Positions 10,497-33,331 of a DNA stretch of 64,000 nucleotides are shown here, piece after piece. The notes under the pieces were generated by a model, which saw only the letters and a program-made list of their open reading frames with translations, was not told the origin of the DNA and did no database searches. The stretch comes from Elusimicrobia bacterium GWB2_63_16 (GTDB lineage Bacteria > Elusimicrobiota > Elusimicrobia > Elusimicrobiales > UBA9959): NCBI GenBank assembly GCA_001799715.1, contig MGTZ01000007.1:60162-124161 (forward strand), given 5' to 3'. How positions within the stretch are numbered: the stretch's first letter is position 1; each line of letters opens with the position of its first letter. The position numbers and the translations under genes were made by a program.

Positions 10497-12082
10497 CCGG
10501 CCTCGCCGTAAAGAATATCTCCAAGACCTACCGGGTTGAGCTGCCCCGGGAGGACGCGCTCTCGGTGCTGATGCGCTTCTTCAGCGGCCGCTCCCCGTCG
10601 CGCCCCTTCAACGCCCTCGACGGCGTCTCTTTCGACCTGAAACCGGGACGCGCGCTGGCGCTCTGCGGCCCCAACGGCTCCGGCAAGACCACCCTGCTCA
10701 AGATCCTCGCCGGCATTACTTCCCCCTGCTCCGGCGAGGTCGCCTTCGCCGGTAAAACGGCCTGCCTGCTGGGCTTCGCCTCCATCCTGCAGGACCGCCT
10801 GAGCGTGAAGGAGAACGCCCGCCTCTGCGCCGTCTTCTTCGGCCTGCCTGGCGCCCCCGCCGAAGCGGCGGAGCGGGTGCTGGCGGCCTCCGGGCTGGCG
10901 CATTTGCGCAATGCCCGCGCAGGCGAGCTTTCGGCCGGCATGAAGCTGCGCCTGCCCTTCATGGCCGCGCTGGCCTGCGGCGCTGACCTGTTCCTTATCG
11001 ACGAGACCCTGGCCGTGGGAGACGCGGCCTTCCGCGACCTGTGCCTGGCCCGCCTGCGGGAGCTCAAACGCGCCGGGGCCATGCTGGTTTTCGCCACGCA
11101 CGACCAGGCCCTCGCCAAAGGCCTGGCCGACGAGGCGCTGGTGCTGGAAGCCGGAAGGCTCGTCTTTTCCGGCGCGGCGGCGGCCCTGCCCCACCACGGG
11201 GCAAAAGAGCCGCCCGGTACCGCCTTCCGCCGCGGTCTGGAGCGGTACGCCGTCCTTTATGAAAAACTGAAGGCCGCCGGCTACGCGCTGCAAGAAGCCC
11301 CGCCCGCCTCCGACGAAGAACTGCTGCTGGTCCACACTCCGGGCTGGCTCGCGCGACTCAAGAACAACGAGCTTTCCCCCGCCGAAGAAGAGGCGCTGGC
11401 GCTGCCCCTCTCTAAACATATCCTGCCCCTGTCCTGGCGCCTGGCTGGCGGCACCCTGGCCGCGGCCCGCGCCGCGCTCTCGTCGGGCCTGGGGATCTTC
11501 CCGCCGGGCGGCGGCCACCACGCCTTCCCCGACCGGGGCGAAGGGTTCTGCCCGGTCAACGACATAGCCGTGGCGGCGCGGGCGCTGCTGAAAGAGGGCC
11601 TGGTCAAAAGGCCAGCCGTCATAGACCTCGACGCCCACCAGGGCAACGGCACGGCCTTCATCTTTGCCGACGGCGAGGTGCGGACTTTCTCCGCCCATAA
11701 GGCGGGCGGCTACCCGCCGCAGCGGGTACGCTCGTCGATGGACGCCGAGATCCCCGACGGCTCCGGCGACGCCGTTTACCTGGCGGCGGTTAAAAAAGGA
11801 ATAAAGGATTTTCTGGAACTGGCGAAACCCGACTTCGTCTTCGCCCTCTGCACGGCCGACGCCTACGAAAAAGACCCGCTGGGCGGGCTGAAGGTTTCGG
11901 CTGAAGGGCTGGAGGAAAGGGACAGATTCGTCTTCGGCACCCTGTCGGAGAAAAAGCTGCCAGTCTGCCTGATACTGGGCGGGGCCTACAGCGAACCGGC
12001 GGAAGCCGCCGGCATAAATTTCAACACTATACAGGCCGCGGCCGCGGCCTGCGCGTCATTCAACAAGATCGTAAGCGTATAG
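10493..12082 (+). CDS. ABC transporter ATPase fused to histone-deacetylase-fold domain
   Basis: GTG start overlaps permease stop (GTGA). N-term: GPNGSGKTT, LFLIDETLAVGD. C-term: PGGGHHAFPDRGEGFCPVNDIAVAA, VIDLDAHQGNGTA, TADAYEKDPLGGL, GGAYS. Confidence 0.92.
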   Translation: MTGLAVKNISKTYRVELPREDALSVLMRFFSGRSPSRPFNALDGVSFDLKPGRALALCGPNGSGKTTLLKILAGITSPCSGEVAFAGKTACLLGFASILQDRLSVKENARLCAVFFGLPGAPAEAAERVLAASGLAHLRNARAGELSAGMKLRLPFMAALACGADLFLIDETLAVGDAAFRDLCLARLRELKRAGAMLVFATHDQALAKGLADEALVLEAGRLVFSGAAAALPHHGAKEPPGTAFRRGLERYAVLYEKLKAAGYALQEAPPASDEELLLVHTPGWLARLKNNELSPAEEEALALPLSKHILPLSWRLAGGTLAAARAALSSGLGIFPPGGGHHAFPDRGEGFCPVNDIAVAARALLKEGLVKRPAVIDLDAHQGNGTAFIFADGEVRTFSAHKAGGYPPQRVRSSMDAEIPDGSGDAVYLAAVKKGIKDFLELAKPDFVFALCTADAYEKDPLGGLKVSAEGLEERDRFVFGTLSEKKLPVCLILGGAYSEPAEAAGINFNTIQAAAAACASFNKIVSV

Positions 12083-17080: not shown

Positions 17081-18016
17081 ATGAGCGCGGCAGAAAAAAA
17101 ACTCTACTGGGGAGACAGGGGAATGCGGAACCTGTCGGCCGGGGCCAGGCTGGATATGGCCGTGCTCAAGGCCAGGCTGGCCGCCCGGCGGCCAGGCGTG
17201 CCTCATTCCCTTTTTCTCGGCCTGACGGCCCGCTGCGACCTGGCCTGCCGCCACTGCAAGTACTCCGGCAGGGCCGGGACCAAAGATATGCCGCGCGCCC
17301 TGCTGCGCCGCCTGCTCGCGGCCGCCGCCAGGGCCGGCGTACCCCGGGTGGTCTTCTTCGGGGGCGAGCCGCTGCTGTACCCGGGCCTGGAAGAGGCCGC
17401 GGCTTTCGCCTCCAGGCTGGGACTGTTCACCGAGTTGGACACTAACGGCCAGACCCTCTCCCCAGACCGCGCCCGCGCGCTGGCCGCCGCGGGCCTCTCC
17501 TGCACCATGATCAGCCTTCATTCCGCCAATGCCGCCCGTCACGACGCCCTGTCCGGGCGCGGCTCCTTCGCCCGGGCCGCCGCCGCCATCGGAGCGTCCC
17601 GCGCCGCCGGGCTCATCACCTATATCTCCTCCTGCGTCTTCTCCGCTTCGCTCGCCGGGAAGGAACTGGCCGGCCTGCTGGCCTATGCCAGGCGGGCCGG
17701 GGCCCACGGGGCGCGCCTGCTGGCCTACTCGCCCCCGGCGGGCCGCGATCCGCTGCCGTCCCGGCTGGCCGGCCGTCTGGCGAGGCTGTCCCCCGAAGGT
17801 TACGCCAGGACCTGCGCCCTGCCCGGCGGCGGCTGCGCGGCCACGGCCGGAGACGTGCTGTACTGCGGCCCCGGCGGCGAGGTGCGCCGCTGTCCCTACG
17901 CCGGCGCCGCCCTGGGCAATGCCGGCCGCCGCGGCCTCGCGGCTTTCCTGCGGCCGCGCCCCGCGACTCCCGCCCCCGTTTTCCCCTGCCAAGGCGGCCG
18001 CAGTTTGCTAAAATAA
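17081..18016 (+). CDS. Radical SAM protein with C-terminal Cys residues (SPASM-like)
   Basis: 311 aa; CDLACRHC, VFFGGEPLLYPGLEEA, late Cys cluster. Confidence 0.87.
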   Translation: MSAAEKKLYWGDRGMRNLSAGARLDMAVLKARLAARRPGVPHSLFLGLTARCDLACRHCKYSGRAGTKDMPRALLRRLLAAAARAGVPRVVFFGGEPLLYPGLEEAAAFASRLGLFTELDTNGQTLSPDRARALAAAGLSCTMISLHSANAARHDALSGRGSFARAAAAIGASRAAGLITYISSCVFSASLAGKELAGLLAYARRAGAHGARLLAYSPPAGRDPLPSRLAGRLARLSPEGYARTCALPGGGCAATAGDVLYCGPGGEVRRCPYAGAALGNAGRRGLAAFLRPRPATPAPVFPCQGGRSLLK

Positions 18017-18020
18017 AACC

Positions 18021-18305
18021 ATGCCGGAAAACAAGAAGAACCCGCTGATACTCGAGTCGGTAACCTGGCGCAAGACCGGCGACGAGGCCGTTATACTGGA
18101 CCTCGAGAGTTCCAATTATTATTCAGCCAACGAAACCGGCACCTTCGTCTGGGAACAGTTCAGCGCCGGCAAGAAGCCGGAGAAGATCGCCGAAGGCCTC
18201 GCCGAGGAGTACGGCATCGCTCCCGCGCAGGCGCGGCGCGACGTGGAAGATTTCCTCAGGGACCTCGCCAAATTCAAGATAGTTCGCCCGGAGGCGGCCA
18301 AATGA
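18021..18305 (+). CDS. PqqD-family protein (RiPP recognition element-like)
   Basis: 94 aa; AVILDLESSNYYSANETGTFVWEQF...IAEGLAEEY. Confidence 0.85.
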   Translation: MPENKKNPLILESVTWRKTGDEAVILDLESSNYYSANETGTFVWEQFSAGKKPEKIAEGLAEEYGIAPAQARRDVEDFLRDLAKFKIVRPEAAK

Positions 18306-18406
18306 AACAGCAGAAGAAAACCCGGCAGAAGCCGCGCAAGTACCAGAAGCCCCAGCTCCGTTCCCACGGGAAGATAAGTGAAGTCGCTTCCGCCTTCAAA
18401 CCTTAA
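18302..18406 (+). CDS. Candidate RiPP precursor peptide (not in ORF track)
   Basis: 34 aa MKQQKKTRQKPRKYQKPQLRSHGKISEVASAFKP; ATGA overlap with the PqqD gene; YQKPQL = YxxPxL. Confidence 0.6.
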   Translation: MKQQKKTRQKPRKYQKPQLRSHGKISEVASAFKP

Positions 18407-19361
18407 AACCAGAACTGCCTTCCTGTTCCCCGGTTCAGGCAGCCAGTACCCCGGCATGGGCCGGGAACTGTACCGCCGGGTACCAGCGGTGCGCGCCGCC
18501 CTCGACGCGCTGCCGCCGCAGTCCTCCCACGGACTGCGGGACATCATGTTCTACGGCCCGGAGAGCAAACTGTTCCCGCCGGTAGACTCTCCCACCCCCT
18601 CCCTCTTCTTCGAAGCCACCGTGGCGCTGTCGCTCTCGGTGGCGGCCGCCTTGCGCGCCTCCGGAGCGAGGCCGGACTGCGCCGCGGGCCGCAGCGTCGG
18701 CGAGTTCGCGGCCTTCGCCTTCGCCGGCGCCGTCGCCCCCGGCTTCTGCTTCAGGGCCATACGCGAGTTCTCCAGGCTGGGCCAGCGCAACTGCCTGGAA
18801 CGGCCCAGCGTGCTGCTGACGGTATACGGGGCCGGCAGGTCGGACCTGCAAAAAGCCTGCGCGGCGCTGGCCCGCGGCGGGCGGGTCTGCGAACTGGTTA
18901 ATTTCTACTCCCGCCTCAACGCCGGCGTGGCCGGGATGGACGCCGCCCTGGCCGCCCCCTTCAGGGCGCTGCTGCCGAAGCGCGCGCGCGTTAAGGCCTG
19001 CAGAGAGGTCGGGGCCTTTCACACCTCCCTTTTCGCCGATACCGCGTCGTCCGTGGCCGGCCTGGCCGCCGCGGAGACCTTCAACAGACCTTCCTGCGGC
19101 CTCTATTGCGCCAGCGACGCCCGCCGGGCGGCCGCCCCGTCCAGGCTGCGCTCGCGCTTCGCCAGGGCCGTGGACGGCCCTGTACTGTGGGAGGAGACGC
19201 TGCGCGCCATGCTGCGCGACGGCGTGCGCACTTTCGTGGAGCTGGCCCCCGGCGCGATGCTGACGGAATTCATCTGCGACCTGCCGCCCGGCGCGGAGGT
19301 GCTGCGCACCGACACGCCCGAAAATTACGCCGCGACCCTGGCGAGGCTGGTGAAAGAATGA
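18378..19361 (+). CDS. Malonyl/acyl-CoA:ACP acyltransferase-like (FabD fold)
   Basis: FPGSGSQYPGMGRELY, GRSVGEFAAFAFAGA, GAFHTSLF, ELAPGAMLTEF; GTG start. Confidence 0.85.
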   Translation: MKSLPPSNLKTRTAFLFPGSGSQYPGMGRELYRRVPAVRAALDALPPQSSHGLRDIMFYGPESKLFPPVDSPTPSLFFEATVALSLSVAAALRASGARPDCAAGRSVGEFAAFAFAGAVAPGFCFRAIREFSRLGQRNCLERPSVLLTVYGAGRSDLQKACAALARGGRVCELVNFYSRLNAGVAGMDAALAAPFRALLPKRARVKACREVGAFHTSLFADTASSVAGLAAAETFNRPSCGLYCASDARRAAAPSRLRSRFARAVDGPVLWEETLRAMLRDGVRTFVELAPGAMLTEFICDLPPGAEVLRTDTPENYAATLARLVKE

Positions 19362-20359
19362 AGACCGCCCCGACGCTAAGACTGAACCTCTCCGGCTGCG
19401 CCGTAGAGTTCGCCTGCGGCGACCGGGAGCTCGCCGCGGCCGTGGCGGCGGACTTCTCCGCTTTCCCCTCCGGCGGCGGCGGGGACCCCGTCAGGATAGA
19501 AGCCAGGCTGGAAGCCGTAAACCGCCCCGAGCTGGCCCTGTTGCGGAGCCGGCGCTACAGCGTTCTGCCCGCCCGCCCCGGCCTGCGCCGGATCTGGTAC
19601 CCCGAGGGCGCCCTCTGCGAGTATGACTATGCCGCCCGCTCGGCCCTGATACGCGCCGCCGGCGGCTCCCTGCTGAAGGAGCTCTCCTACCTGCTGATAC
19701 TCTCGCGGGCCGGCGAAGAACTGGACCGGCGCGGGCTGCACCGCCTGCACGCCGGGGCGCTGGGCCGGGGCGGCCGGGCGCACTTGTTCTGCGGGCCGCA
19801 GGGTACCGGCAAGACCACGCTGCTGCTGGAACTGCTCAAGGACCGGGACTTCAGCCTTCTCTCCGATGACACCCCGCTGGTCGCGAGGGACGGGACCGTG
19901 CTGGCCTTCCCGGTCCGCGTCGGCCTCGGGCTGGACAGCCCCCACCTGCCTGAGCTCGGGGAGTTAAGGAAATTCGAACGGCGGCATTACCCGCCCAAAC
20001 GTCTCCTGGACATCGGCCCGGCCGGCATCCGGGTTTCGCCGCAGCTGCCGCCTGGCGGGATATTCCTGCTGCGCCGCGCCGCCGCCCCCCGCATAAGCCC
20101 CGCGGGGCGCGGCGCCGCCGCCGTAGAACTCCTGCGCTCGCTGGCGCTGGGCTGCGGCACGCCGCAGCTGGCGGAATATTTCCTCAGGCCGGATCCAGCC
20201 GACGCGGCAAGCAAGGCCGGAATACTCTTCTCCCGGCTGCGCGCCGCGCGCGCGCTGCTGGCCAGGGCTGATTTTTATGTTTTCGAGGTCGGCCCGGACC
20301 GGGCCAAGAACGCCGCGGCCTTCAAGTCTTTCCTGAACACCGGCACCGCCGCGGCCTGA
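19358..20359 (+). CDS. HPr kinase-like P-loop protein
   Basis: RLHAGALGRGGRAHLFCGPQGTGKTTLLLELL, FSLLSDDTPLV; ATGA overlap with acyltransferase stop. Confidence 0.8.
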   Translation: MKTAPTLRLNLSGCAVEFACGDRELAAAVAADFSAFPSGGGGDPVRIEARLEAVNRPELALLRSRRYSVLPARPGLRRIWYPEGALCEYDYAARSALIRAAGGSLLKELSYLLILSRAGEELDRRGLHRLHAGALGRGGRAHLFCGPQGTGKTTLLLELLKDRDFSLLSDDTPLVARDGTVLAFPVRVGLGLDSPHLPELGELRKFERRHYPPKRLLDIGPAGIRVSPQLPPGGIFLLRRAAAPRISPAGRGAAAVELLRSLALGCGTPQLAEYFLRPDPADAASKAGILFSRLRAARALLARADFYVFEVGPDRAKNAAAFKSFLNTGTAAA

Positions 20360-21347
20360 GACTTCCCGAAGCTTTCTCGACAAGTCCTTCAATAAAACCC
20401 GCCGCCCAGCCCGCGGCGTAGCAGCCGTGCAGGGCCGGGTATAGCGGCACCAGTGCCGGTCTCACCGCAAGGGGCGCCGCCGAGAGCGCGGCCGCCAGCA
20501 AAGAAACCGTTAAATATATCCCGGCGGCCGCGGCCAGCAGGCCCGGGGCGTAAGCCGCGGCCGGCACCGCGCCGGCCAGCGCCGCCGGGGGCAGCAGCGT
20601 GAAAGCGGAGAACCCCCGCGGGCTCAGCGCCGTGATCTGCCCTCTCCCCCTGCCCGAGCAGAACACCTGGCGCAGGAAAGCCGCCGGGCTCGCGCGCCGC
20701 CGGTGCACCAGATTGAGATCCCCGCTGAGCGCCATGCGCGCGCCGGCCGCCGCCATGCGGTTGAGCAGCAGGTTCTCCTCGGCGCTGCTCAGATGGCCTT
20801 CGAAAGACAGCGCATGCGCGCGCAGAAAGGCGTTATCCAGCGCCAGGTTGCAGAGTATGAATTTTTCCGGCCCGGCGGCCGCCGTGCCGCGCGCCGGGGA
20901 GAAGCGCGAGGTAAAGGGCCCGCCGCCCCAGGGGCCGGAGAGCAGGGCGTAAACGGCGGTCTCGAAATAGCCCGCCTCGCGGTGCGGCGCCTGGCCGCCG
21001 CCGAAGACCGAGACTCCCGGGTTGGCCCCTATCAGGGCGGCCAGGCGGTCGAGGTAGCCGGGCGGCACTTCTGTATCGTCGTCGAGAAAACACAGCCAGC
21101 GTCCGGCCGCCCTCGCCGCCAGCAGGCCCCGGGCCTCGCCGCGGCAGGCGCGGCGCAGCTGCACCGGTTTCAATTCCGGCCACGCGGCATAGCGCTCCAG
21201 CAGCGCCGCCGAGGCCGGGTCCTCCCCGTCTATACCCACCAGGATCTCCCCCGCGGGCCCGGCGCGCCTCAGGCTCTCCAGGCAGGCCTCCAGCAGGGCC
21301 GGCCGGCCGCGCGTGATAATGATCACGCTGATACCGCCGGCGCTCAC
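20322..21347 (-). CDS. GT2 family glycosyltransferase, membrane anchored
   Basis: ISVIIITRGRPALLEACLESL, WLCFLDDDTEVPPGYL, C-terminal TMs. Confidence 0.85.
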   Translation of the reverse strand: MSAGGISVIIITRGRPALLEACLESLRRAGPAGEILVGIDGEDPASAALLERYAAWPELKPVQLRRACRGEARGLLAARAAGRWLCFLDDDTEVPPGYLDRLAALIGANPGVSVFGGGQAPHREAGYFETAVYALLSGPWGGGPFTSRFSPARGTAAAGPEKFILCNLALDNAFLRAHALSFEGHLSSAEENLLLNRMAAAGARMALSGDLNLVHRRRASPAAFLRQVFCSGRGRGQITALSPRGFSAFTLLPPAALAGAVPAAAYAPGLLAAAAGIYLTVSLLAAALSAAPLAVRPALVPLYPALHGCYAAGWAAGFIEGLVEKASGSLRPRRCRCSGKT

Positions 21348-24300
21348 GCCCCCTCCATCAGCGCCGCCGTCTGCGCCGCGACGAACTCGTAATTAACGCC
21401 GCAGGCCCCGCCGGCCCGGAAGTCCGGCCACGACGGGCCGTCGCCGAATTGCGCGCGGTAGGCCGCGCCGAGCTCGTGCGGGCGGGAGAAGGCCGGCGCG
21501 TCGCCGGCGGCGAGCAGCAGGCGCAGGCCGGCCGCGCGGGTATAGAAATAATGGGGAGGCATGGTCCCCCAGAGCGAGCGCCAGGAAGCGGAGAAATGCG
21601 CCGCCGCCAGACGGGCCGCCGCGGCGGTAGCGGCCTTGGACCGCGCCGCTGGCCGCGGCGCGCCGTACAGGAACAATCCGCCGTCCTCCGGCGAGGTGCC
21701 GGCGGCGGGGACCAGCAGGTCCTGCCAGAACAGCGGGTTATTGAGATAGGGCAGGCCGGCCAGGGTCAGGAAGGACGAGCGCGAAAGCAGCAGCGGCGCC
21801 GGCGAGAAGTAAGGCGTGCCCAGCCTGGCCGCGCCATAGGCCGCCGCGGCTTTTAAAAAACCTGCCTTGTCTCCCGCCAGGTCATCCGGCAGCAGCACGT
21901 AGACGCGGTACAGGGAATCCAGGACAACTGCGGTCCCCGCCCCGGCGTCCCTGGCGAGGGCGGCGCAGGAGGCCTCGAAAACGTGGGTGTTGAACCAGGC
22001 CGGGTTCGCCGGCGCCGCGACGGTGGCCGCCTCGGCTGCGGGCGGGCAGGCGGCGTGCAGGGAGGAGAAGGCCTCGAAGGCGGCAGCGCCGGGATCACCG
22101 GCGCCAGCGAGGTCCGCCCCTATGCTGCGGGCGTAGTCTCGGCGGGAACCCCGGGCCGGAGACGCCGTGTCCAGGTACCGCCGCACGTCCACCATCCCTT
22201 TCTGGCAATTGCGGCTCCGGAAGGCGGGCGGCAGGCCGGTGGCGTAGAAATGAGTCAGCAGCAGCGTATAGGCATAGAAAGCTTCCGTCAGGTCGGCCGC
22301 CGCGGCCCCGCTGGCAGCCGCGGGCTTGATCCCGGGCCCGGCGAGCAGGCGGGAAGCGGCGGAGAACTCCGCGCCTTTGACACCCCAGGCCGACATGAAG
22401 GCGGAGAAATGCGCCGCCGGCGCGCTCAGCACCTCTCCGGTGAAAGGGAAGACAGCGCGGAACAGGCGCAGGCGGCGGCGCAGCGCGCGCCAGGAGGCCC
22501 AATCGGCGGCCGGCGCGGCCGGCGCGCCGAGCAGGGCGAGGTCCATATCGCTCAGGCCGGCCACCCAGTCCCCGGCGGCCATGCCGCGGTAGAGGTAAAG
22601 CGAACCGCCGCGGCCGGGGCGCAGCAGCGCCGCGGCGGCCCGCGCCGCCGCCAGGTAATACAGGCGGTACAGCCAGGCCAGCGGCGGCAGGCCGGCGGTA
22701 GCCGCCGCGAAGCGGAACAGCAGCGCCCTGGCCCTGGACGGCGCCGGGCGGGCCGCAGGCGGGGTCCAGCGCTCCCCGTTCACGAAAACATCCACGGCCT
22801 TCAACCGCGCGCCCGGAGCCGCCACCAGCCCCGGATAGGGCGCGCCGCTGATCTCCGCCCCGCGCAGGACCACCCGGCCGGCCGACACCCGCAGGCCGCC
22901 CTTGGCCCCGCCGCTGGAGCGCAGGCCGCTGGCGTGCAGGGAAAGGCCGGACAGGGCGGCGGCATAATCGCGGGCGGCTATCCGCAGGTCCTCCGCTCGC
23001 ACCGCGGTAACGCCGGCCGTCAGCAGCCCTCCGGCCCCGGAGGCGTAAACGCCGCGCAGCACGGCGCCGCGGCAGTCGAGATCCAGCGCCGCCCCCCCGC
23101 CGGCCTCCAGCGAGCAGCCGGTGAGGCTCAGCGAGGCGGCTCCGCGCGCGTATACGGCGTCGGCGGAGGAGGTGAAGGAGGAGCCTGCCGCGCGCAGGCG
23201 CGCGCCGCCCGCCAGCGAAACGGCCGGGGCGCCGGAACTGTCGGCAGAAAAGCGCTCCAGGGAAACGCTGGCAGTCCCGCCGGCGGCCAGCGCGGCGTGC
23301 GCGCCCCCGGAACGGCAGGAAAAAGCGAAAAGCCTCGAGGAACCGAAGAGTTCGAAAGAGGGCCCGGCATTGCCCGAGAAAGAACAGCCAGCCGCCTCCA
23401 CGGCCGCCCGGCCGGACAGGGCGGCTCCCGACCCGTTGCCGGGGAAGGCGCAGCCTTCCGCCGACGCGCCGGCCCGGCCGGAGAGCCGCAGCGGCGCGCC
23501 GGCATTGTTTTCAAAGCGGCAGCGGTACAGCCGGGCCCTGGCCTTGCCGGAAATTTCCGCCCCTTCATGGTTGCCGGCAAAGACGCAGCCGGAGGCGGCC
23601 AGCGCGGCGCGGCCGGAGAGGCACAGCGCGGACCCGCCGTCGGAAAAGGCGCAGCCGGAGGCTGAGAAGTTCATAAAACCGGCGGCCGCCTGGCCCGAGA
23701 CTTCGGCCGCGGCCCCGCCGCAGCGCTCCGCCAGGCCGCCGCAGGCCAGCAGCACGGCATGGTCCCCGGCGAGCAGCGCCGGTCCCGCCAGGCCGGTAAA
23801 AGAGCAGTTGTCCAGCGTGGCGCCGGCGGCCCCGTAGAACTCGGCGCCGCGGGCGCCTCCGGAGACGGCGCAGCTTTCCGCCAGCGCGGAGGCGTTATCC
23901 CGGGCCGAGAAGGCGCAGGCCGCGGAGCCGGACAGACGGGCGTGCGAGAGGGTCAGGCGGCCGCCGCCCAGCGCGTAGATACCGGCGAAAGCGGGGCCGC
24001 CGGCGTTAACCGGCGCGGCGGCGGTCCCGGCGGCGTGGAACTCGCCGTAGACCAGCAGTTTGGCGCCGGCGCTCTCCAGGGAGCGCGCCTCGCCATCCAG
24101 CCCGGCGCGCAATACGGGAAAGAACCAGGGCTCGCGCCGCTCGAAGACTATCTCGGTGCCCGGGAGAGCGGTAACGCGCGCACCGGCGGCCACCGTCAGG
24201 TAATCGGCCACCACTACGCGGCCGCTCCAGGTCTCGTCGGCCGTTATCCTGCCGCTCTTGACGGAGCAGGCCCCGGCGGCGGGAACGCCGCCGCTGGGGC

Positions 24301-24793
24301 GCGCGGGCAGGGCGGCCAGCCGCAGCAAAAATGGATAGAGGAGAGCTTCCCAGCGCAGGTAAAGCGGGTTCAGCGTCCAGGCGGGCAGCAGGGGCCTGGC
24401 GGCCGAGAACAGTGCCGCGGCGGCGGCGGCGGTGAGATATAAAAGTTTATTGGCTACCGCTCCGTAGAGGGACAGGAACAGGGCGCGGGTCGATCGCCGC
24501 TCCAGGGGATAGCGCAGTCCGCCGCGCTCCAGCGCCACGGCCAGGCCGGCTGGCTCGTAGGCCGACGGCGGCCAGTCCGGCAGGAAATTGGCGTCCCCCT
24601 TGGTAAGCAACCGGCGCCGCCCGCCGGCCACGGCGTTGATCAGCACGCGGTGCAGCACGTAGCCCGCCGGGCGGCCGCCGGCCCACTTCACCAGGAGGGC
24701 CAGGTCGCCGGGCCGCGGTTCTTCCGGGGCGCAGGGACGCACTACCGCCGCGTCTCCCGGCTCGAGCAGGAAGCGCATGGAATGTCCCAGCAC
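21344..24793 (-). CDS. S26-type peptidase + parallel beta-helix repeat + nucleotidyltransferase-like fusion
   Basis: 1149 aa. GHSMRFLLEPGDAAVVRP...GYVLHRVL...LLTKGDAN; many short Gly/Ala/Cys beta-helix coils; LYRGMAAGDWVAGLSDMDLALLG near C-terminus. Confidence 0.72.
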   Translation of the reverse strand: MLGHSMRFLLEPGDAAVVRPCAPEEPRPGDLALLVKWAGGRPAGYVLHRVLINAVAGGRRRLLTKGDANFLPDWPPSAYEPAGLAVALERGGLRYPLERRSTRALFLSLYGAVANKLLYLTAAAAAALFSAARPLLPAWTLNPLYLRWEALLYPFLLRLAALPARPSGGVPAAGACSVKSGRITADETWSGRVVVADYLTVAAGARVTALPGTEIVFERREPWFFPVLRAGLDGEARSLESAGAKLLVYGEFHAAGTAAAPVNAGGPAFAGIYALGGGRLTLSHARLSGSAACAFSARDNASALAESCAVSGGARGAEFYGAAGATLDNCSFTGLAGPALLAGDHAVLLACGGLAERCGGAAAEVSGQAAAGFMNFSASGCAFSDGGSALCLSGRAALAASGCVFAGNHEGAEISGKARARLYRCRFENNAGAPLRLSGRAGASAEGCAFPGNGSGAALSGRAAVEAAGCSFSGNAGPSFELFGSSRLFAFSCRSGGAHAALAAGGTASVSLERFSADSSGAPAVSLAGGARLRAAGSSFTSSADAVYARGAASLSLTGCSLEAGGGAALDLDCRGAVLRGVYASGAGGLLTAGVTAVRAEDLRIAARDYAAALSGLSLHASGLRSSGGAKGGLRVSAGRVVLRGAEISGAPYPGLVAAPGARLKAVDVFVNGERWTPPAARPAPSRARALLFRFAAATAGLPPLAWLYRLYYLAAARAAAALLRPGRGGSLYLYRGMAAGDWVAGLSDMDLALLGAPAAPAADWASWRALRRRLRLFRAVFPFTGEVLSAPAAHFSAFMSAWGVKGAEFSAASRLLAGPGIKPAAASGAAAADLTEAFYAYTLLLTHFYATGLPPAFRSRNCQKGMVDVRRYLDTASPARGSRRDYARSIGADLAGAGDPGAAAFEAFSSLHAACPPAAEAATVAAPANPAWFNTHVFEASCAALARDAGAGTAVVLDSLYRVYVLLPDDLAGDKAGFLKAAAAYGAARLGTPYFSPAPLLLSRSSFLTLAGLPYLNNPLFWQDLLVPAAGTSPEDGGLFLYGAPRPAARSKAATAAAARLAAAHFSASWRSLWGTMPPHYFYTRAAGLRLLLAAGDAPAFSRPHELGAAYRAQFGDGPSWPDFRAGGACGVNYEFVAAQTAALMEGA

Positions 24794-24827
24794 CGGATAT
24801 ATTCTTTCCAGACAGGCTCCTGGCGGC

Positions 24828-25634
24828 TCAGGCTTTCTTTACCAGCTTGCGGCCGTCGCTTTCAAGATGGGGATCGATCTCGTCGAGGAACTCCAGGGCC
24901 TTGCGGCACCATTTGTCCACGAACACCGCGCGGTTCTTCTCGGCCCAGGCGTAAAAATGGTCGTGCCCGCCGAAGCTGGCGTGGTGGCGGTGCCAGACGA
25001 ACACGCCCTTGGCGGCCTTCAGTTTCCAGCCGGCCTGGCGCAGGCGCAGGCAGTAATCGAAATCCTCGAAGCAGCCGGTGCCGAAGCGCTCGTCGAGGTT
25101 GCCCACGCTCTCGAAGGCCTCGCGGCGCAGCAGGAAGCAGAAGCCCACCAGGCGGTGCACCTCGTAGGCGTCACGGCCGAACCGCAGGCTCATCGCCTGC
25201 GCGAAGACGCGCAGCGCGTCCGGGTCCTTCTCCACCTTCGGGGCCAGCACCACGCGCTGTACCCCGACGGTGCGGTTGGTCACCGGGCCGCAGGCCCCGG
25301 CGGCGGGGTCGCGGTCCAGGCAGTCGGCCAGGCCCCGCAGCCCCCCTTCGTAAAAAGCCACGTCGCTGTTGACCACGGCGAGATACTTGCCGCGGGCGGC
25401 CTTCAGGCCGGCGTTGACCGCCCTGGCGAAGCCGAGGTTGGTCTTATGGCGGATCTTGACGGCGCCGCGCAGGCCGGCGATGTAGCGGCGCGTCTCCGGG
25501 CCGGAGCCGTTGTCCACGAGGATGAGTTCGTAAAGCCCGCGCGCCGTGCGCCGCAGGCTCTCCACGCAGGCCCGCAGGTCCGCGGGAGCGTTATAGACCG
25601 GGATGATGACGCTGATCAGGGGTTTGGCTCTCAT
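24828..25634 (-). CDS. GT2 family glycosyltransferase
   Basis: LISVIIPVYNAPADLRACVESLRRT, NLGFARAVNAGLKAARGKYLAVVNSDV. Confidence 0.92.
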   Translation of the reverse strand: MRAKPLISVIIPVYNAPADLRACVESLRRTARGLYELILVDNGSGPETRRYIAGLRGAVKIRHKTNLGFARAVNAGLKAARGKYLAVVNSDVAFYEGGLRGLADCLDRDPAAGACGPVTNRTVGVQRVVLAPKVEKDPDALRVFAQAMSLRFGRDAYEVHRLVGFCFLLRREAFESVGNLDERFGTGCFEDFDYCLRLRQAGWKLKAAKGVFVWHRHHASFGGHDHFYAWAEKNRAVFVDKWCRKALEFLDEIDPHLESDGRKLVKKA

Positions 25635-25688: not shown

Positions 25689-27419
25689 ATGACGGCCGCG
25701 GAGAAACCTGGACTATACCTGCTCTTCGCGGCGCTAGCGGCGGCCTGCGCGCTCGCGGTCCACCTGCCCTTCGCCTCGGACGAGCTGCTGTGGGACGACG
25801 GGCAGTACCTGGCCGGCAACCCTTTCGCCACGGACTGCGCCAGCCTGGGCTCGGCCCTGAACCCGCTGAACCTGGTCCGCGTGCTCCCGGTCCCCATGAG
25901 CTCCCGCCCCGTAGTGAACGCCTCCCTGATCGCCGACGCCTGCGGCGGGCTCGGCCCGCGGGGCATGAAGGCCACCAACGCGCTGCTGCACGCCGGCAAC
26001 AGCGCCCTGGTCTTCTTGCTGCTGTTTCTCCTCTCTAACTCCGCGCCCGGCGCGCTGTTCGGCGCGCTGGTCTACGCCGTACACCCGGCCTCCGCGGAGA
26101 CCATCCATATAGTGGTCTTCCGCTCCCATTTGCTCGGTTCTTTCTTCTTTCTCTCGGGCCTGCTGGCCTCCCTCTTTTACGCCAGGCGGCCTTCAGCCGC
26201 GGCCGGCCTGGCCTCCGCCGCCTGCCTGCTGCTCGGCGCGCTCAGCGTGGAGACGGCCGTGGTGCTGCCGTTGGCCGCCGCGCTGGTTATCTTCGCCGAT
26301 TCAGGCAGGGCCGGCCTGCGGCGGGCGCTGCCGCTGCTGGCGGCCGCCGTGCTGCTGCTGGGCTTCTATGCCTGGTTCCGCGCCCCCCGCTCCGGCTACA
26401 GCCTGCCCGGCAGCACGCCGGGCATAAGCGCCCCTTCTCCGCTCTACCCGGCCGCCCTGCTGCCGCCGGACCGGCCGGCGCGCGCCGTCTGGAGCCTGCC
26501 GCCGCCCTGGCGCGAAGTTTACGAGAGCAGGACGGCCAATCTCTACACTATGTCCCTGGTGGCGCTGACAGACCTGCGCGACCTGCTGCTCCCCTGCGGG
26601 CTGAGCGCGGACTACGCCCCGCGGGTGCTGCGCTCTTTCGCCGAGGGGGCCCTGCCGCTGGCGGGGGCCCTGGCCGCGCTGGCCGCCGGAGTTTTTCTCT
26701 ACGCCCGCCGCCGGCTCGCCGGCCTGGCGCTGCTGCTCATAGCCGCCGGCCTGCTGCCGGCCCTCAATCTCTGGCCGGCCTATAACCTGAAAGCCGACCG
26801 ATACCTGTACCTGCCCCTGGCCGGCGCGGCCCTGCTGGCGGCCGCCGGCCTGCGCTACGCGCTGGGCAGCCGTTACCGCGTACCGCTGCTGGGAGCGGCG
26901 GGCCTGTGGCTGGCCGGCCTGGCCGGCGCGGCGCTGCTGCGCGGGCCGCAATTCAGCGACGACCTGGCGCTGTTCTCCGCCGCGGCCGCCGCCGCTCCGG
27001 GCTCGCCCAGAGCGCGCCTCAACCTGGGGGCGGCCCACCTGCGCGCCGGGGACTGCGCCGGCGGCGTACAGGCTTTCCGCGAGGCCGCAGGGCTGGACCC
27101 CGCCGCCGCCCACCCCCGCCTGCGCCTGGCCTACGCCCTGGCCGGCTGCGGCTCCGGCGGGGAAGCCGCCGCTTTGCTGGAAACTTATCCGCCGGACGCC
27201 GACTCAGCCTACCTGCGGGGCTTGCTGAAACTAAAGACCGACAGGGCCGGGGCGGCGGCGCTGCTGCGCCTGGCGCTGGAGGCCTCGCCCGGCCGCCGGG
27301 ATTTCCGGCTGGCGCTGCTGCTGGCCGAAAACAAGGAACCCGCCGGAAAGGACGGGCGGGAGGCCGAGGAGCTGCGGGCTTTCCGCGAGACCCTGGTAAA
27401 AGCCGGATTATTTTTTTGA
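25689..27419 (+). CDS. TMTC-like multi-TM protein with C-terminal TPRs
   Basis: WDDGQYLAGNPF, MKATNALLHAGNSALVF, AVHPASAETIHIVVFRSHLLG; TPR-like tail. Confidence 0.75.
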   Translation: MTAAEKPGLYLLFAALAAACALAVHLPFASDELLWDDGQYLAGNPFATDCASLGSALNPLNLVRVLPVPMSSRPVVNASLIADACGGLGPRGMKATNALLHAGNSALVFLLLFLLSNSAPGALFGALVYAVHPASAETIHIVVFRSHLLGSFFFLSGLLASLFYARRPSAAAGLASAACLLLGALSVETAVVLPLAAALVIFADSGRAGLRRALPLLAAAVLLLGFYAWFRAPRSGYSLPGSTPGISAPSPLYPAALLPPDRPARAVWSLPPPWREVYESRTANLYTMSLVALTDLRDLLLPCGLSADYAPRVLRSFAEGALPLAGALAALAAGVFLYARRRLAGLALLLIAAGLLPALNLWPAYNLKADRYLYLPLAGAALLAAAGLRYALGSRYRVPLLGAAGLWLAGLAGAALLRGPQFSDDLALFSAAAAAAPGSPRARLNLGAAHLRAGDCAGGVQAFREAAGLDPAAAHPRLRLAYALAGCGSGGEAAALLETYPPDADSAYLRGLLKLKTDRAGAAALLRLALEASPGRRDFRLALLLAENKEPAGKDGREAEELRAFRETLVKAGLFF

Positions 27420-28280
27420 ACCGAAGTTGGTGAAGGAAAAGGAAGAGAGCTGCACCGGCTTGAAGTTGAAGCTGGCCGACGGCTCCCCCATCGGCATCCC
27501 GTCGGCGCCGGGGCTGGAATACTTCTTAAGCCAGGCCTCCCATTTCTGCCCGAAATCAGCACCCTCGCGCGTCCTGTAGTTCTTCCACAGCGCGTCGTCC
27601 GTCTTTTCCCCCGCCCTGAGGGCCTCGCAGAAGGCCTTGAACTGCACGCGCGTGTGCGGCTTGTTGAGGTACAGCACGGCCCCGTAGGATTGCAGATACC
27701 AGTCGGCGATCTGGTTGTCGGACTGCAGCTGGTCCAGCTTGACGCCGAAGAAAGTGCCGAACGGCAGGCGGCGCTCCGGCGGGAAATAGGCCAGCGCCCG
27801 GCTCCAGGCGCCGCCCTCCGGGAACACGGATTCCTCCATGTACACGGCCAGGCCCTCGTTGAGCCACTGCGGCGGGTACTTGAGCTTCTCGGCGAAGTAG
27901 CTCTCGAAATAGAGGTGCGTCAGCTCGTGCGCGATAACCGCCTTTAGCTTCTGCATGTCGCCGGTGTCGTAGACCACGATGGTCTTTTTGGCGACGAAGG
28001 CCAGGCCCTTGGACCAGCGCGGCGGCTTGAACTCGCCTTTGAGGTAGGAGTCCTGCGAGGAGTAGATGTAGATCTTGGTGCGCTCGCGCACCATCCACGG
28101 CGCGAACATGGCCAGGTTCAGCCGCATCGAGGAGTACATGCGCTCCATCTCCAGCGAGACGGAGGCCGGGGACCACACGGATTCGTGCAGGATCTCGAAG
28201 TGGGGCGAGGTCTTGTGATGCCAGTCGACGGGGGCCGCGGTGGCGAGGGAGACGGAGAGCAGCAGCAGGGAGGAGAGCAT
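27408..28280 (-). CDS. Secreted peptidase MA-like gluzincin
   Basis: Signal peptide; HELTHLYFESYF...WLNEGLAVYMEE. Confidence 0.85.
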   Translation of the reverse strand: MLSSLLLLSVSLATAAPVDWHHKTSPHFEILHESVWSPASVSLEMERMYSSMRLNLAMFAPWMVRERTKIYIYSSQDSYLKGEFKPPRWSKGLAFVAKKTIVVYDTGDMQKLKAVIAHELTHLYFESYFAEKLKYPPQWLNEGLAVYMEESVFPEGGAWSRALAYFPPERRLPFGTFFGVKLDQLQSDNQIADWYLQSYGAVLYLNKPHTRVQFKAFCEALRAGEKTDDALWKNYRTREGADFGQKWEAWLKKYSSPGADGMPMGEPSASFNFKPVQLSSFSFTNFGSKK

Positions 28281-28290
28281 GGGCGCCTCC

Positions 28291-28602
28291 TTAATCCTGG
28301 GTCACCGTTACATTCACTTGCTGGCCGACGCGCGTAAAATTGACCGTGGCTCCCTCGATATTGACGGAACCTGAGGACGGGATAGACGCAGAATTGGGGT
28401 AGGTGATGAAATTCCACCGGGTAAACTGCTCCCCGGCCACCCACTGGGAATGCGAGGCCGACTTGCTGGCGCGGTAGTTGCGGGAGGCCAGCACGTAGCG
28501 GGCCAGCACCCACTTCATGACCATCACCGCGATCATGGAGAGGATCACGGAAATGACCAGGGTCTGGACCAGCACTATGCCTTTTTTCCACCCTCGTTTC
28601 AT
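28291..28602 (-). CDS. PilX-like minor pilin
   Basis: KKGIVLVQTLVISVILSMIAVMVMKW N-terminus; in pilin gene run. Confidence 0.65.
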   Translation of the reverse strand: MKRGWKKGIVLVQTLVISVILSMIAVMVMKWVLARYVLASRNYRASKSASHSQWVAGEQFTRWNFITYPNSASIPSSGSVNIEGATVNFTRVGQQVNVTVTQD

Positions 28603-28656
28603 ATATTCATAGTCTAGCAGAGAAACCCCCCGACGGCAAGGGCGCGGCTGGAGGGC

Positions 28657-29358
28657 CTAGGGCCTGGAGACCGAAGCGGCGATCACGGTATCGAGCGAGA
28701 AGTCCACGTCGCGCTGCGAGGCGGCCATGCCGCGGGCGGAGGCGTCCCAGAAAGAGCGCAGGCGCACCCGCACGGTGGCGGAATCGTTGATGCGCTCCGC
28801 TGAGCGGCGGGAGAAGATGCTCTGGCCGGGCAGGGGGGGCACGACGTGCTGGGAAAGTTTGAGGACGGTCTGGCCGCCCATGTTCAGGCCGCAGGAGCCT
28901 GGCGGCACCGGGTAAACCCCGTTCCACACCGGGGAGCCAGCCTGGCCGCAGGGGATGTTGGAAACCGGCAGGTTGGCGGTGTGATAAAAAAGGGCCTGGG
29001 TGCCGGGCAGAGCCGTGTCGTTGCCCAGGCAGAAATGGTGCCAGGCCGGCCGGGTGACGGCCGCGGCGGCCAGGTTAACGGGGTAACAGCCGGTGAGCCT
29101 GTCCACGTTGGTGGCGAAATCCAGCACGTTGCCCTGCGCGCCGAAGGCCGGAGAGTCCAAGCGCGTGGCCGCGCTCAAATTGTTCTGTATGGCGCGCATG
29201 CCCAGCAGCAGCGTGCTCTTCACCGCGTTCCCCCGGTAGTTCTGCAGCATATGCCGGTGCGCGGTGGAATAGATCGTGGCCATGGAGGCGGCCATGAAAC
29301 TGAAGATGAAGATGGCCACCATCAGCTCTACGAGTGTAAATGCCCGGCGTTTTTCCAT
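28657..29358 (-). CDS. Type IV prepilin (PilW-like)
   Basis: MEKRRAFTLVELMVAIFIFSF prepilin motif. Confidence 0.85.
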   Translation of the reverse strand: MEKRRAFTLVELMVAIFIFSFMAASMATIYSTAHRHMLQNYRGNAVKSTLLLGMRAIQNNLSAATRLDSPAFGAQGNVLDFATNVDRLTGCYPVNLAAAAVTRPAWHHFCLGNDTALPGTQALFYHTANLPVSNIPCGQAGSPVWNGVYPVPPGSCGLNMGGQTVLKLSQHVVPPLPGQSIFSRRSAERINDSATVRVRLRSFWDASARGMAASQRDVDFSLDTVIAASVSRP

Positions 29359-29360
29359 TT

Positions 29361-29804
29361 TCAATCCGTATAGCTGAGCTGGAACGTGACCCGTTTGCAG
29401 GCCAGCGGATAATCGGGCGGGCTGCCCAGGCCGAAACCGCAGTCGTAGCTGGCGACGTTGTAGGTGAAGCTCCCGCCGTTCTCGATAGGCGTGTCGGCGA
29501 GCAGCGAGGTGATGGTGTGGTTGCCGTTGCGCAGCGCCCATTGGCCGGAGGGGTCCGCGGCCCAGCGCCCGGGGACGGCGCCCGGGGAATAATTGGGATC
29601 GCTCGGGGCGACGCTGACGTAGACTTTCAGCGCCTGCTGGGCCTGGCGCAGGGCCATGGCCGCGGCGTCGCGTTTGTCCGCCCTGGCGTCGGCGACGAAG
29701 CTGGACAGGACCACGGAGAAGACGGCGCTGGCGGTCATGGCCGCGATCACCGTGGCCATCACTACCTCCACCAGCGTCTGTCCGGGGCGTCCGCGCGTCT
29801 TCAT
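29361..29804 (-). CDS. Type IV prepilin (PilV-like)
   Basis: MKTRGRPGQTLVEVVMATVIAAM. Confidence 0.82.
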   Translation of the reverse strand: MKTRGRPGQTLVEVVMATVIAAMTASAVFSVVLSSFVADARADKRDAAAMALRQAQQALKVYVSVAPSDPNYSPGAVPGRWAADPSGQWALRNGNHTITSLLADTPIENGGSFTYNVASYDCGFGLGSPPDYPLACKRVTFQLSYTD

Positions 29805-29805
29805 A

Positions 29806-30297
29806 TCAGAACCTGGGGCAGGAGGGCACGCTGGTGCCGCTGGCCGAGCAGCTGCCATTGAGATCGAAAGAGTAGTTCCAGGTGTTGTACGGGGAGTTGC
29901 CGCCGTTGCGCCGGGTGCAGGCCGCCCCTCCGCCGCAAGAGGCCTGGCCTACCTGGTAGATGTAGTAGGAGGCGCCGCCGGGGCCGGTGCCCCATTGCTG
30001 GGCGGCCACGTACTGGCAGCGCACCAGGCGGCAGGCCGACCTGTCGGTGGTCTGGCAATTGGTAGTGTTGCAGCTGTCGGTCATGAAACCGGACAGGTTT
30101 TCCGCCGCGGTCGGGTGGTCTATCTTGTACATGCGGTAGGCGTTGGCGAGCATATGCCCTATGGCGACGGCGTCGCTGGCGCGCGAAGTCTCCACGGTCT
30201 TGAGGTAGTGGGGCACGCCCACCGAGGCGAGGATGCCCATAATGAACACGACCACCAGCAGTTCTATCAGCGTAAAGCCTTTTCTGACGGGTTTCAT
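29806..30297 (-). CDS. Type IV major pilin-like
   Basis: MKPVRKGFTLIELLVVVFIMGILASVGVPHYL; Cys-rich C-terminus. Confidence 0.9.
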   Translation of the reverse strand: MKPVRKGFTLIELLVVVFIMGILASVGVPHYLKTVETSRASDAVAIGHMLANAYRMYKIDHPTAAENLSGFMTDSCNTTNCQTTDRSACRLVRCQYVAAQQWGTGPGGASYYIYQVGQASCGGGAACTRRNGGNSPYNTWNYSFDLNGSCSASGTSVPSCPRF

Positions 30298-30316
30298 ATT
30301 TTCCTCCCGGCGCGGT

Positions 30317-31540
30317 TTAGCCGGCGCCGATCTGCGAGAGCTGGAAGATGGGCATGAAGATGCTCATCACGATGACGGCCACGATGCCGCCGACGCCCAC
30401 GACCAGGATGGGGTCGATCATGGCCGAGAAGCGGCGCAGCCACTGGTCGATCTGCTCCTGATAGTACTTCGAAAGCACCACGATGATGTCCGGCAGCTTG
30501 CCCGACTCCTCGCCCATCCACATCATCTCCGTCACCATGGGCGGGAAGATGCCGGTCTTCTTGAAGGACTCGGAGATGGAGCGGCCGCTGGCGATGTCGT
30601 TCTTGGCCTGCTTGAGCGCGCCCTGGAAGATCAGGTTCTTCTTGAAGGCGCCCTCGAGCACCGAGACGGCGTTGAGGATACTGACGCCCGAGCGGATCAG
30701 CGTGGCCATGGTGGTGAGCATGCGCTCTATGGCCATGGCCTTCATCAGCGCGCCGAAGAGGGGCAGGTTGAACTGGATGTGGTTCCAGGTCAGGCGGCCC
30801 GGGGGCGTGGCGATGTAGGCCCTGAAGGCGAAGACGCCGCCTATAGTGCCGACGAGCATGAGCACGAAATACTTGGTCAGGATGGAGGAGACCAGCAGCA
30901 CCATGCGGGTGACGATGGGCAGCGTCAGGCCGAAGTCCTTGAAGATGTCGGCGAAGACGGGAACGATGTAGAAGATGAAGTAGACCAGCACGCCCATGGA
31001 CATCGTGAACAGCACGGCCGGGTAGGAGACCGCGGTGACGATCTTGGACTTCACGTTCTCCTGGGATTCGCTGTAGGCGGTTATCTGCCGCAGCACGGCC
31101 GGCAGCTGGCCCGAGACCTCGCCGGCCTGCACCAGGGAGACCCAGATATCGTCGAAGACCTTGGGGTGCTTCTCGAGCGCCTTATGGAAGGCGCCGCCGG
31201 CGGAAACTTCCTTGGTGACGGCGGACAGCACGGCGCCCAGCGCCTTGTTCTCGGCGTGCTCGCTGAGCAGCGACAGCGCGCGCACGAGCGGGATGCCGCC
31301 GCCTATCAGCGTGGACATCTGCTCGCCGAAGAAGACCATTTCGCGGCCGGAGATGCTCCCCCCGCCCATCTTCTTGATGCTCATGATGCCTTTGGACTTG
31401 GTGTCCTCGGCCTGGATGGAAAGGATGAAGAGCCCCTTGGTCTGCAGGGCCTGTACCGCGCCGTCTTCGTCGTCGGCGTCCACGGCGCCGGTGGTTACCG
31501 TGCCCTGGGCGTCCTGTACCGTATAAATGAAGCGTCCCAT
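30317..31540 (-). CDS. pilC: Type IV pilus inner-membrane protein PilC
   Basis: 407 aa GspF family; FFGEQMSTLIGGGIPLVRAL, GEESGKLPDIIVVLSKYYQEQID. Confidence 0.93.
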   Translation of the reverse strand: MGRFIYTVQDAQGTVTTGAVDADDEDGAVQALQTKGLFILSIQAEDTKSKGIMSIKKMGGGSISGREMVFFGEQMSTLIGGGIPLVRALSLLSEHAENKALGAVLSAVTKEVSAGGAFHKALEKHPKVFDDIWVSLVQAGEVSGQLPAVLRQITAYSESQENVKSKIVTAVSYPAVLFTMSMGVLVYFIFYIVPVFADIFKDFGLTLPIVTRMVLLVSSILTKYFVLMLVGTIGGVFAFRAYIATPPGRLTWNHIQFNLPLFGALMKAMAIERMLTTMATLIRSGVSILNAVSVLEGAFKKNLIFQGALKQAKNDIASGRSISESFKKTGIFPPMVTEMMWMGEESGKLPDIIVVLSKYYQEQIDQWLRRFSAMIDPILVVGVGGIVAVIVMSIFMPIFQLSQIGAG

Positions 31541-31582
31541 ATATATTGAAGTCTAACAGAAAGTCGGGGTCAGTTCAAGCCC

Positions 31583-33331
31583 CTATCGCTCCGTCATCGT
31601 GATCGACAGCATGTCGTCGGCCGAGGTGACGCCGGCCAGCACCTTGCGCCAGCCGCTGGCGCGCAGGTCCCAGGCGCCGCTCTTGAGCGCCGTTTCGCGC
31701 ATCTTCGGCACGTCGGCGTCCTTGACGATGACGCGCTTGATCTCCTCGGTAATGAAGAAAACCTCGTAGATGGCCTTGCGGCCCTTGTAGCCCATGTTGA
31801 CGCACTTGGGGCAGCCGCGGGCCTTGTAGAAGGTCAGCCGCGTCAGGTCGGGCACAGGGTCGAGCCTGGATTCGCGGGCGAACATGTCGAGTTCCTCCTG
31901 CGTGGGGCGGTACGGCACCTTGCAGTCGGGGCAGAGCACGCGCACGAGGCGCTGCGCGGCCACCAGCAGCAGGGTGCTGGCCAGCAGGTAGGGTTCGATG
32001 TCCATGTCGATGAGGCGCGGGATGGCCTCGAGCGCGCTGTTGGTATGCAGCGTCGATAGCACGAGGTGGCCGGTCATGGCGGCCTTGAGGCAGGCCTCGG
32101 CCGTCTCGTTGTCGCGGGTTTCGCCGACCAGGATGACATCGGGGTCCTGGCGCAGGAAGGAGCGCAGGCCGGCCGCGAAGGTGAGGCCGATCTGGGGCCG
32201 GATCTGCACCTGGCTGATGCCCTCCATCTTGACTTCGACGGGGTCCTCCAGCGTCATGATGTTGATCTCGGGCGACTTGATGGTATTGAGGACGGCGTTG
32301 AGGGTGGTGGTCTTGCCGGAGCCCGTGGGGCCGGTCAGCAGGATCAGCCCGTGCGGGGCGGTGGCGGCCTTCAGGAAGTCCTCCTTCTGGCGCACCTCGA
32401 AGCCGATCTTGTCCACGTTGAATTCCACGTTGCCCTTGTCGAGCAGACGCATGACCAGCTTTTCGCCGAAAACGGTGGGGCAGATGCTGACGCGGGTTTC
32501 GATATTGCGGTTCTGGAACTTTATGGTGAAACTGCCGTCCTGCGGGAGGCGGCGCTCGGAGATGTCCAGCTTCGCGAGGATCTTGACGCGCGAGATGATG
32601 GCGTCGAAGAGTTCGGACTGCGGGGCGCTGCGCTCGTAGAGCGTGCCGTCGATGCGGAAGCGCAGGGCCACCTTCTCGTCGTACTTCTCCAGGTGGATGT
32701 CGCTGCAGCGCTCGCCGATGGCCTGCTTGATGATGGCGTTGACGAGCTTGATGGACTGCGCGCCCTTGCTCTCGCCGATGATGACCTTGTCCAGGTCCAG
32801 CTTGCCGTCTGAGGTGACCACGTCGGTCTCGGAGGATTCCCCCTGGCCCTCGCCGGCGCCTTTGTCGAGCACGCGGTCGATGAGACTGGTCTGCCCGGAG
32901 TAGAAGGAGTCTATGACCTTGAGGATCTGCGCCTTGGTGGAGATGAACGGCGTGATCTCCATGCCCGACACCAGCTTAAGGTTGTCGAGCATGATGATGT
33001 TGGTCGGGTCCGTCATGGCGGTGGCCAGGGTGTTGTTCTCTATGAACAGCGGCACCACGGCGTTGTCGCGGGCGAACTTCTCGGGGATCATCTTCTCCAG
33101 GCCCTGGCCCTTCTCGGGGTTCAGGATCTGGTTCTCTTTGGAGGCGTACGGGATGCCCAACTGCTTGGCCAGCGCCTGGGCCACCTGTTCCTCGGTGGCA
33201 TAGCGCAGCTTCACGAGCGCCTCGCCGATGAGGCCGCCCTGCTGCTGCTGGAACTTCAGCGCCTTCTGCAGCTTGTCTTCGTCGATCCATTTGGCCTGGA
33301 TCATTATTTCGCCGAGGAGTTTGTGGGCCAT
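31583..33331 (-). CDS. pilB: Type IV pilus assembly ATPase PilB
   Basis: 582 aa; MshEN N-domain, GPTGSGKTTTLNAVL, RSFLRQDPDVILVGETRD, CxxC pairs. Confidence 0.95.
   Translation of the reverse strand: MAHKLLGEIMIQAKWIDEDKLQKALKFQQQQGGLIGEALVKLRYATEEQVAQALAKQLGIPYASKENQILNPEKGQGLEKMIPEKFARDNAVVPLFIENNTLATAMTDPTNIIMLDNLKLVSGMEITPFISTKAQILKVIDSFYSGQTSLIDRVLDKGAGEGQGESSETDVVTSDGKLDLDKVIIGESKGAQSIKLVNAIIKQAIGERCSDIHLEKYDEKVALRFRIDGTLYERSAPQSELFDAIISRVKILAKLDISERRLPQDGSFTIKFQNRNIETRVSICPTVFGEKLVMRLLDKGNVEFNVDKIGFEVRQKEDFLKAATAPHGLILLTGPTGSGKTTTLNAVLNTIKSPEINIMTLEDPVEVKMEGISQVQIRPQIGLTFAAGLRSFLRQDPDVILVGETRDNETAEACLKAAMTGHLVLSTLHTNSALEAIPRLIDMDIEPYLLASTLLLVAAQRLVRVLCPDCKVPYRPTQEELDMFARESRLDPVPDLTRLTFYKARGCPKCVNMGYKGRKAIYEVFFITEEIKRVIVKDADVPKMRETALKSGAWDLRASGWRKVLAGVTSADDMLSITMTER

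Follow-up and report, generated by a model that had tools for sequence, protein, structure and literature searches.

The question raised by this locus is what a protease domain, a long beta-helix and a nucleotidyltransferase (NTase) domain could be doing together in a single polypeptide. The window analysed is a 64,000-nucleotide stretch of a contig from Elusimicrobia bacterium GWB2_63_16, a member of Elusimicrobiota, an uncultured phylum known mostly from metagenomes. To our knowledge, these three domain types have not been described together. The analysis indicates that the gene is intact and conserved, and that its product probably takes part in making a surface molecule based on peptide or sugar.

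The fusion gene and its start

The minus strand carries an unbroken ORF running from 24793 to 21344. A sequence-only reading had given this frame without a strand; the frame is continuous, and all the motifs named in that reading (GHSM, GYVLHRV, KGDAN and GMAAGDWVAGLSDMDLALLG) were found in it. Homologues open with LEKxYPVLGHSM, mostly from a TTG codon. At the same position the window has CTG-GAA-AGA-ATA-TAT-CCG-GTG. AGGAG stands five bases ahead of this CTG (24811), and the frame has a stop ten codons before it, 18 codons upstream of GHSM. Because of the homologue N-termini, the AGGAG and the nearby stop, translation probably starts at CTG 24811 and yields a protein of about 1155 aa; the GTG at 24793, taken earlier as the start, is probably not the true one.

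Many long antisense ORFs are present in the window, as would be seen if the frame were open by chance in high-GC DNA. Full-length, single-frame homologues occur, however, in 13 other genomes, and further genomes hold contig-end fragments. In 13 related genomes the gene is found in the same place, between two GT2 glycosyltransferase genes that face a radical SAM-PqqD-acyltransferase-HprK group. In four pair comparisons the S26 protease domain had dN/dS values of 0.07-0.26 and the beta-helix coils 0.26-0.47, the coils being above S26 in every pair; the NTase core had 0.19-0.31. An assembly chimera or a chance frame therefore has a negligible probability and was rejected, since full-length orthologues in independent genomes, with the same gene order and under purifying selection, already refute it. 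Judged from these orthologues, the low dN/dS and the invariant motif residues of the S26 and NTase domains, neither chance nor faulty assembly accounts for the fusion.

Table 1. Coordinates of the fusion gene, its domains and motifs, and the neighbouring genes in the window
Feature	Position	Strand	Basis
S26 - beta-helix - NTase fusion gene	21344..24811	-	Continuous ORF; ~1155 aa from probable CTG start
S26 (Sec11/SipW-type) domain, residues 1-102	24506..24811	-	TIGR02228 9e-5 (below cut-off); profile vs SEC11C 5e-6
GHSM with predicted nucleophile Ser11, residues 9-12	24776..24787	-	G9, S11, M12 invariant in 17 homologues
His54 of HRV, predicted catalytic base	24650..24652	-	Invariant; aligns with SEC11C HRV
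Asp73 of TKGD, predicted third triad residue	24593..24595	-	Invariant; aligns with SEC11C TKGD
Two long helices, residues 108-166, first hydrophobic; possible membrane hairpin	24314..24490	-	AlphaFold helices; Kyte-Doolittle
Right-handed beta-helix, residues 181-673; conserved N-terminal cap 184-290, coils variable	22793..24271	-	PF13229, VIA, conservation
NTase domain and helical C-terminal half, residues 693-1155	21347..22735	-	AlphaFold pLDDT 89; AadA-type and other NTases top fold search
NTase motif RGMAAGDWVAGLSDMDL, residues 742-758	22538..22588	-	R742, G743, S754, D755, D757 invariant
GE, residues 792-793, candidate third carboxylate E793	22433..22438	-	Invariant in A1 (17 C-domains)
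GT2 glycosyltransferase GTb	20322..21347	-	PF00535 3.9e-14; overlaps fusion-gene stop codon; conserved neighbour
GT2 glycosyltransferase GTa, directly upstream of fusion gene	24828..25634	-	PF00535 3.6e-31; conserved neighbour
Radical SAM enzyme with CDLACRHC	17081..18016	+	PF04055 1.4e-19
PqqD-like (RiPP recognition element) protein	18021..18305	+	PF05402 3.1e-19, above cut-off
FabD-like acyltransferase with GRSVGE and AFH (Ser and His motifs)	18378..19361	+	PF00698 2.7e-17
HprK-related kinase, P-loop GPQGTGKTT, exact start uncertain	19361..20359	+	TIGR04352 1.9e-5, below cut-off

Three domains in one chain

Profiles and fold searches bore out the division of the protein into S26-like, beta-helix and NTase regions. 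The case that the sequence-only reading had named as refuting its proposal, a beta-helix protein with no S26 or NTase fold, did not arise; for S26 this is judged from a profile match and predicted beta structure. The three-domain architecture is well supported. The AlphaFold model of the full-length protein (pLDDT 84.9) places an all-beta region at residues 1-102, helices at 108-138 and 144-166, then the beta-helix and the C-terminal domain; its pTM of 0.55 is too low to fix the relative placement of the domains.

The N-terminal domain gave no match in Pfam. TIGR02228 of NCBIfam matched over residues 2-75 (numbered from the GTG) with 22.4 bits against a cut-off of 51.85. When a profile of 17 homologues was compared with the PDB, human SEC11C (5e-6) was followed by SEC11A (2e-5), and the SM, HRV and TKGD motifs fell in register. 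G9, S11, M12, H54, R55, G72 and D73 are invariant in the 17-homologue alignment, and the Ser-His-Asp catalytic residues stand in the expected order. The region, folded within the full-length chain, is predicted to be all-beta, with pLDDT block means of 43-85. A fold search with the full-length model listed no S26 row, but the beta-helix fills the list, hence this is no evidence against an S26 fold. On the profile match and the predicted beta secondary structure, residues 1-102 are predicted to be a Sec11/SipW-type S26 domain. It shares with the ER-type signal peptidases (MEROPS S26B, TIGR02228) the order and spacing of GxSM, HR(V) and TKGD. Unlike them, it falls short of the TIGR02228 cut-off, is joined to a beta-helix and an NTase, and has no membrane anchor before the predicted catalytic Ser, which stands at position 11 counted from the probable start. 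The fusion therefore presents a Sec11/SipW-like protease domain that lacks a leading membrane anchor. Two further, ordinary Peptidase_S26 matches are found in the same genome.

The helix at 108-138 is hydrophobic in all orthologues, with a Kyte-Doolittle peak of 1.4-2.5. This hydrophobic helix, together with the lack of a transmembrane segment at the N-terminus, suggests that the protein is probably cytosolic and membrane-associated.

The beta-helix matched PF13229 (1.8e-20, 73.6 bits, cut-off 25.9), and in the VIA fold search a phage tail protein scored Z 34.3 and AlgG 30.6; its fold matches largely act on polysaccharides, such as AlgG and PL6 lyases. The fold is shared with AlgG, NosD and tailspike proteins (Z 23-34), but those are secreted or exposed, whereas the beta-helix of the fusion has no signal and sits between two predicted catalytic domains. 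Eighteen positions are invariant in the first 107 residues, the cap. The coils have 1 invariant position among 390 aligned, compared with 18 of 102 in the S26 domain and 33 of 238 in the NTase alignment (NT1), and their number varies, the aligned block spanning 252-1084 aa across orthologues. The near-zero invariance, variable length and higher dN/dS argue for coils that serve as a scaffold and not as an enzyme.

The AlphaFold model of residues 695-1155 has a pLDDT of 89.1 and a pTM of 0.91. Foldseek gave weak E-values with it (best 0.38), the named matches being mainly AadA, AAD(9), ANT and MNT. In VIA, AadA was best (Z 8.2, 190 residues), a level that is marginal taken alone and that, according to the tool, can arise from a common arrangement; nearly all other rows were Pol-beta NTases. 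SDxD is invariant in 17 C-domains and in 24 aligned stretches of a mostly more distant set. In the hG[GS] motif the first Gly is replaced by Arg or other residues, and the second position is mostly G or S. The position of the candidate third carboxylate is D in L150, and GE is not kept outside the phylum. The domain itself had no Pfam match, while PF01909 (NTP_transf_2) matched relatives weakly, two at 0.044 and one from Calditrichia at 0.0033. Because of the fold matches, the invariant SDxD and these weak profile matches, residues 693-1155 very likely form a Pol-beta superfamily NTase. The nearest solved folds, the AadA/ANT aminoglycoside nucleotidyltransferases (rmsd 4.1), have DxD and a helical domain in common with it. 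They differ in that the fusion NTase is 14% identical, carries an extra helical half of about 200 aa, has HRG or YRG in place of GS, and lies in a non-resistance context.

Kinship with PF14907 (NTP_transf_5), which we take to be the family of the pseudomycoidin NTase, was rejected, as there was no profile match and profile comparison gave a probability of 0.8%. An internal duplication was also rejected, because profile comparison of the two halves gave nothing; the second half had a single weak structural row (6xz0, model 246-459, Z 7.1).

The conserved gene cassette

The fusion gene belongs to a seven-gene cassette that also comprises the radical SAM, PqqD-like, acyltransferase, HprK-like, GTa and GTb genes. 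Family orthologues keep this order as far as their contigs allow, with longer gaps in two genomes (G053 and G049). For the PqqD-like protein, the nearest NCBIfam model was lasso_PqqD_Strm, with 59.2 bits against a cut-off of 70. No precursor peptide ORF was found in the cassette; short conserved frames were antisense or out-of-frame shadows or lay outside it. The genome, which is 91% complete, has no lasso B2 leader peptidase (PF13471), and identity with a lasso-peptide cluster was rejected on this ground.

A second locus in the same genome (L168, G000 C21, 7318-11116) contains HprK-like, PqqD-like and radical SAM genes and a standalone S26 gene of 107 aa, with a masked run of N upstream of HprK. 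The NTase of the fusion family was not detected within 16 kb around it. The partner types are those of the cassette, but the S26 is free and not fused to a beta-helix; therefore S26 domains lacking a transmembrane segment adjoin PqqD and HprK as separate genes too.

Distribution and rearrangement in the phylum

The named organisms among the orthologous contigs are Elusimicrobia. As few candidates were scored per genome, the phylum counts are lower bounds: the NTase domain is present in at least 52 of 340 genomes (at least 25 of 100 genera), the S26 domain in at least 45 and both in at least 39. Outside the order of the window organism, S26 and NTase occur together in 19 genomes against 3.1 expected (hypergeometric 1e-15, a value that ignores phylogeny).

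The split homologues for which the sequence-only reading had suggested a search do exist. In G014 and G025 an S26-beta-helix gene is divergent from a PqqD-NTase gene, and in G093 the two are on separate contigs. GTb is fused to the NTase in other genera (G228, G186 and G192), and S26 and NTase share a single frame in another family (G194, G200, G211 and G214). Beta-helix-NTase fusions occur in G213, G305, G322 and G324, the latter three adjoining several radical SAM genes. NTase relatives outside the phylum have HprK or GT2 genes next to them, in loci that resemble surface-glycan clusters and contain ABC exporter or glycosyltransferase genes. The modules of the cassette are thus rearranged yet remain together across Elusimicrobiota, and they provide a natural fusion map (S26, beta-helix, NTase and GT2, with PqqD and HprK as neighbours) for the poorly understood PqqD/HprK cassettes.

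Some further loci were observed in the phylum. In L144 (7056-12761), next to several radical SAM genes, a frame of 1902 aa contains ten Beta_helix stretches as well as two copies of the NTase that are identical in motif sequence. In L145, L146 and L147, NTase-bearing frames (with a beta-helix detected in L145 and L146) are followed on the same strand by about five radical SAM genes in tandem. At G003 C31:4082-6217 (L152) two PF14907 NTases stand side by side, with E-values of 1e-71 and 4e-58; in most genomes of the genus one copy was found, and its weak match falls far below theirs.

Proposed function

The idea, put forward in the sequence-only reading, that a peptide or glycan may be cut, held on a scaffold and nucleotidylated by one and the same polypeptide fits the PqqD, HprK-like, radical SAM, acyltransferase and two GT2 neighbours; no precursor peptide was found. 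In lasso peptide tailoring, HPrK-type kinases phosphorylate the C-terminal Ser (PMC8498205; see also PMC7533575). In the case of pseudomycoidin, an NTase adds a hexose to the phosphate that such a kinase has placed on the peptide, and fusions of NTases to the B2 leader peptidase occur in some cases (PMC8498205). The pseudomycoidin and paeninodin loci resemble the cassette in combining PqqD (B1), an HPrK-type kinase and an NTase (PMC8498205). The cassette differs in its S26-type protease, in an NTase that is not detectably PF14907, in the missing B2 and precursor, and in the added beta-helix, radical SAM enzyme, acyltransferase and GT2s. No matching description of a PqqD/HPr-kinase/NTase/signal-peptidase system outside lasso peptides was found in the literature.

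Since the cassette has the functional set of lasso tailoring with a different protease, we favour acceptor trimming together with phosphate-based modification, at somewhat less than even confidence. From the gene content we infer the following substrates and order of steps. The PqqD-like protein would present a peptide or protein acceptor, and the HprK-like kinase would phosphorylate a hydroxyl on it. The NTase domain might then attach a nucleotidyl or phospho-sugar group at this phosphate, which the GT2s would extend, and in the cytosol the S26 domain may cleave either the acceptor itself or its leader. The beta-helix could serve as a scaffold of tunable length, keeping the two active sites tethered or carrying the chain as it grows. 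The fusion product would thus be the central protein of the cassette, a cytosolic, probably membrane-associated multi-enzyme protein. The absent precursor ORF tells against this scheme, as do the Arg at the first Gly of hG[GS], the lack of detectable PF14907 kinship and the modest NTase Z of 8.2; the low pTM and a topology read from hydrophobicity and the missing leading segment weaken it further.

Some of the same observations would suit a different acceptor, a surface glycan or lipid-linked sugar, bound by the beta-helix and given a nucleotidyl or phospho-sugar group by the NTase, with PqqD and S26 concerned just with regulation or turnover. The flanking GT2s, the GTb-NTase fusions, the glycan-like loci of NTase relatives, the polysaccharide-acting beta-helix matches and the missing precursor all point this way. 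However, PqqD, radical SAM and S26 all indicate a peptide, the S26 triad is strongly constrained, and the coils are nearly devoid of the invariant residues expected of a glycan site. We consider a glycan acceptor unlikely, though it has to be taken seriously. It is considerably less probable that S26 cuts its own chain or a beta-helix partner, as in LexA/UmuD-like autoprocessing, and so frees the NTase on a signal. Protease and cargo do share one chain in the family orthologues, and the S26 site, lacking a leading transmembrane segment, is probably cytosolic. But the split forms retain S26 with the beta-helix even where the NTase is already a free protein, the triad is Ser-His-Asp and not the Ser-Lys dyad of LexA, and no conserved interdomain cleavage site was noticed, although there was no systematic search. 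The non-canonical first position of hG[GS] would agree with S26 and NTase folds that merely bind partners, an explanation that is very improbable given that the motif residues of both domains are invariant in 17-member alignments and that SDxD is kept in the distant set.

If acceptor trimming and modification on a peptide is correct, phosphate-linked peptide glycosylation extends beyond lasso peptides, to Elusimicrobiota. A broader and more speculative proposal, which we regard as improbable as a whole, is a new class, spread through the phylum, of phosphoglycosylated or nucleotidylated peptide systems, in which protease and NTase sites would stand at the two ends of a length-tunable cytosolic beta-helix acting as a molecular ruler or assembly scaffold.

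Other genes of the window

At 27408-33331 the cassette has Peptidase MA-type, N_methyl pilin-like and 103-aa protein genes as neighbours, which are kept in many members of the genus and are followed in the window by a T2SSE ATPase gene. On the plus strand, a 553-aa ORF at 10421-12082 joins an ABC-transporter ATPase (PF00005, 3.3e-21) to a histone-deacetylase-family domain (PF00850, 4.4e-47). The product may combine an exporter ATPase with a deacetylase for sugars or amines. Full-length homologues are found in L041 (13583-15202, 48%), where an apparent ABC-2-type permease comes next, and in L048 (3487-5067, 70%).
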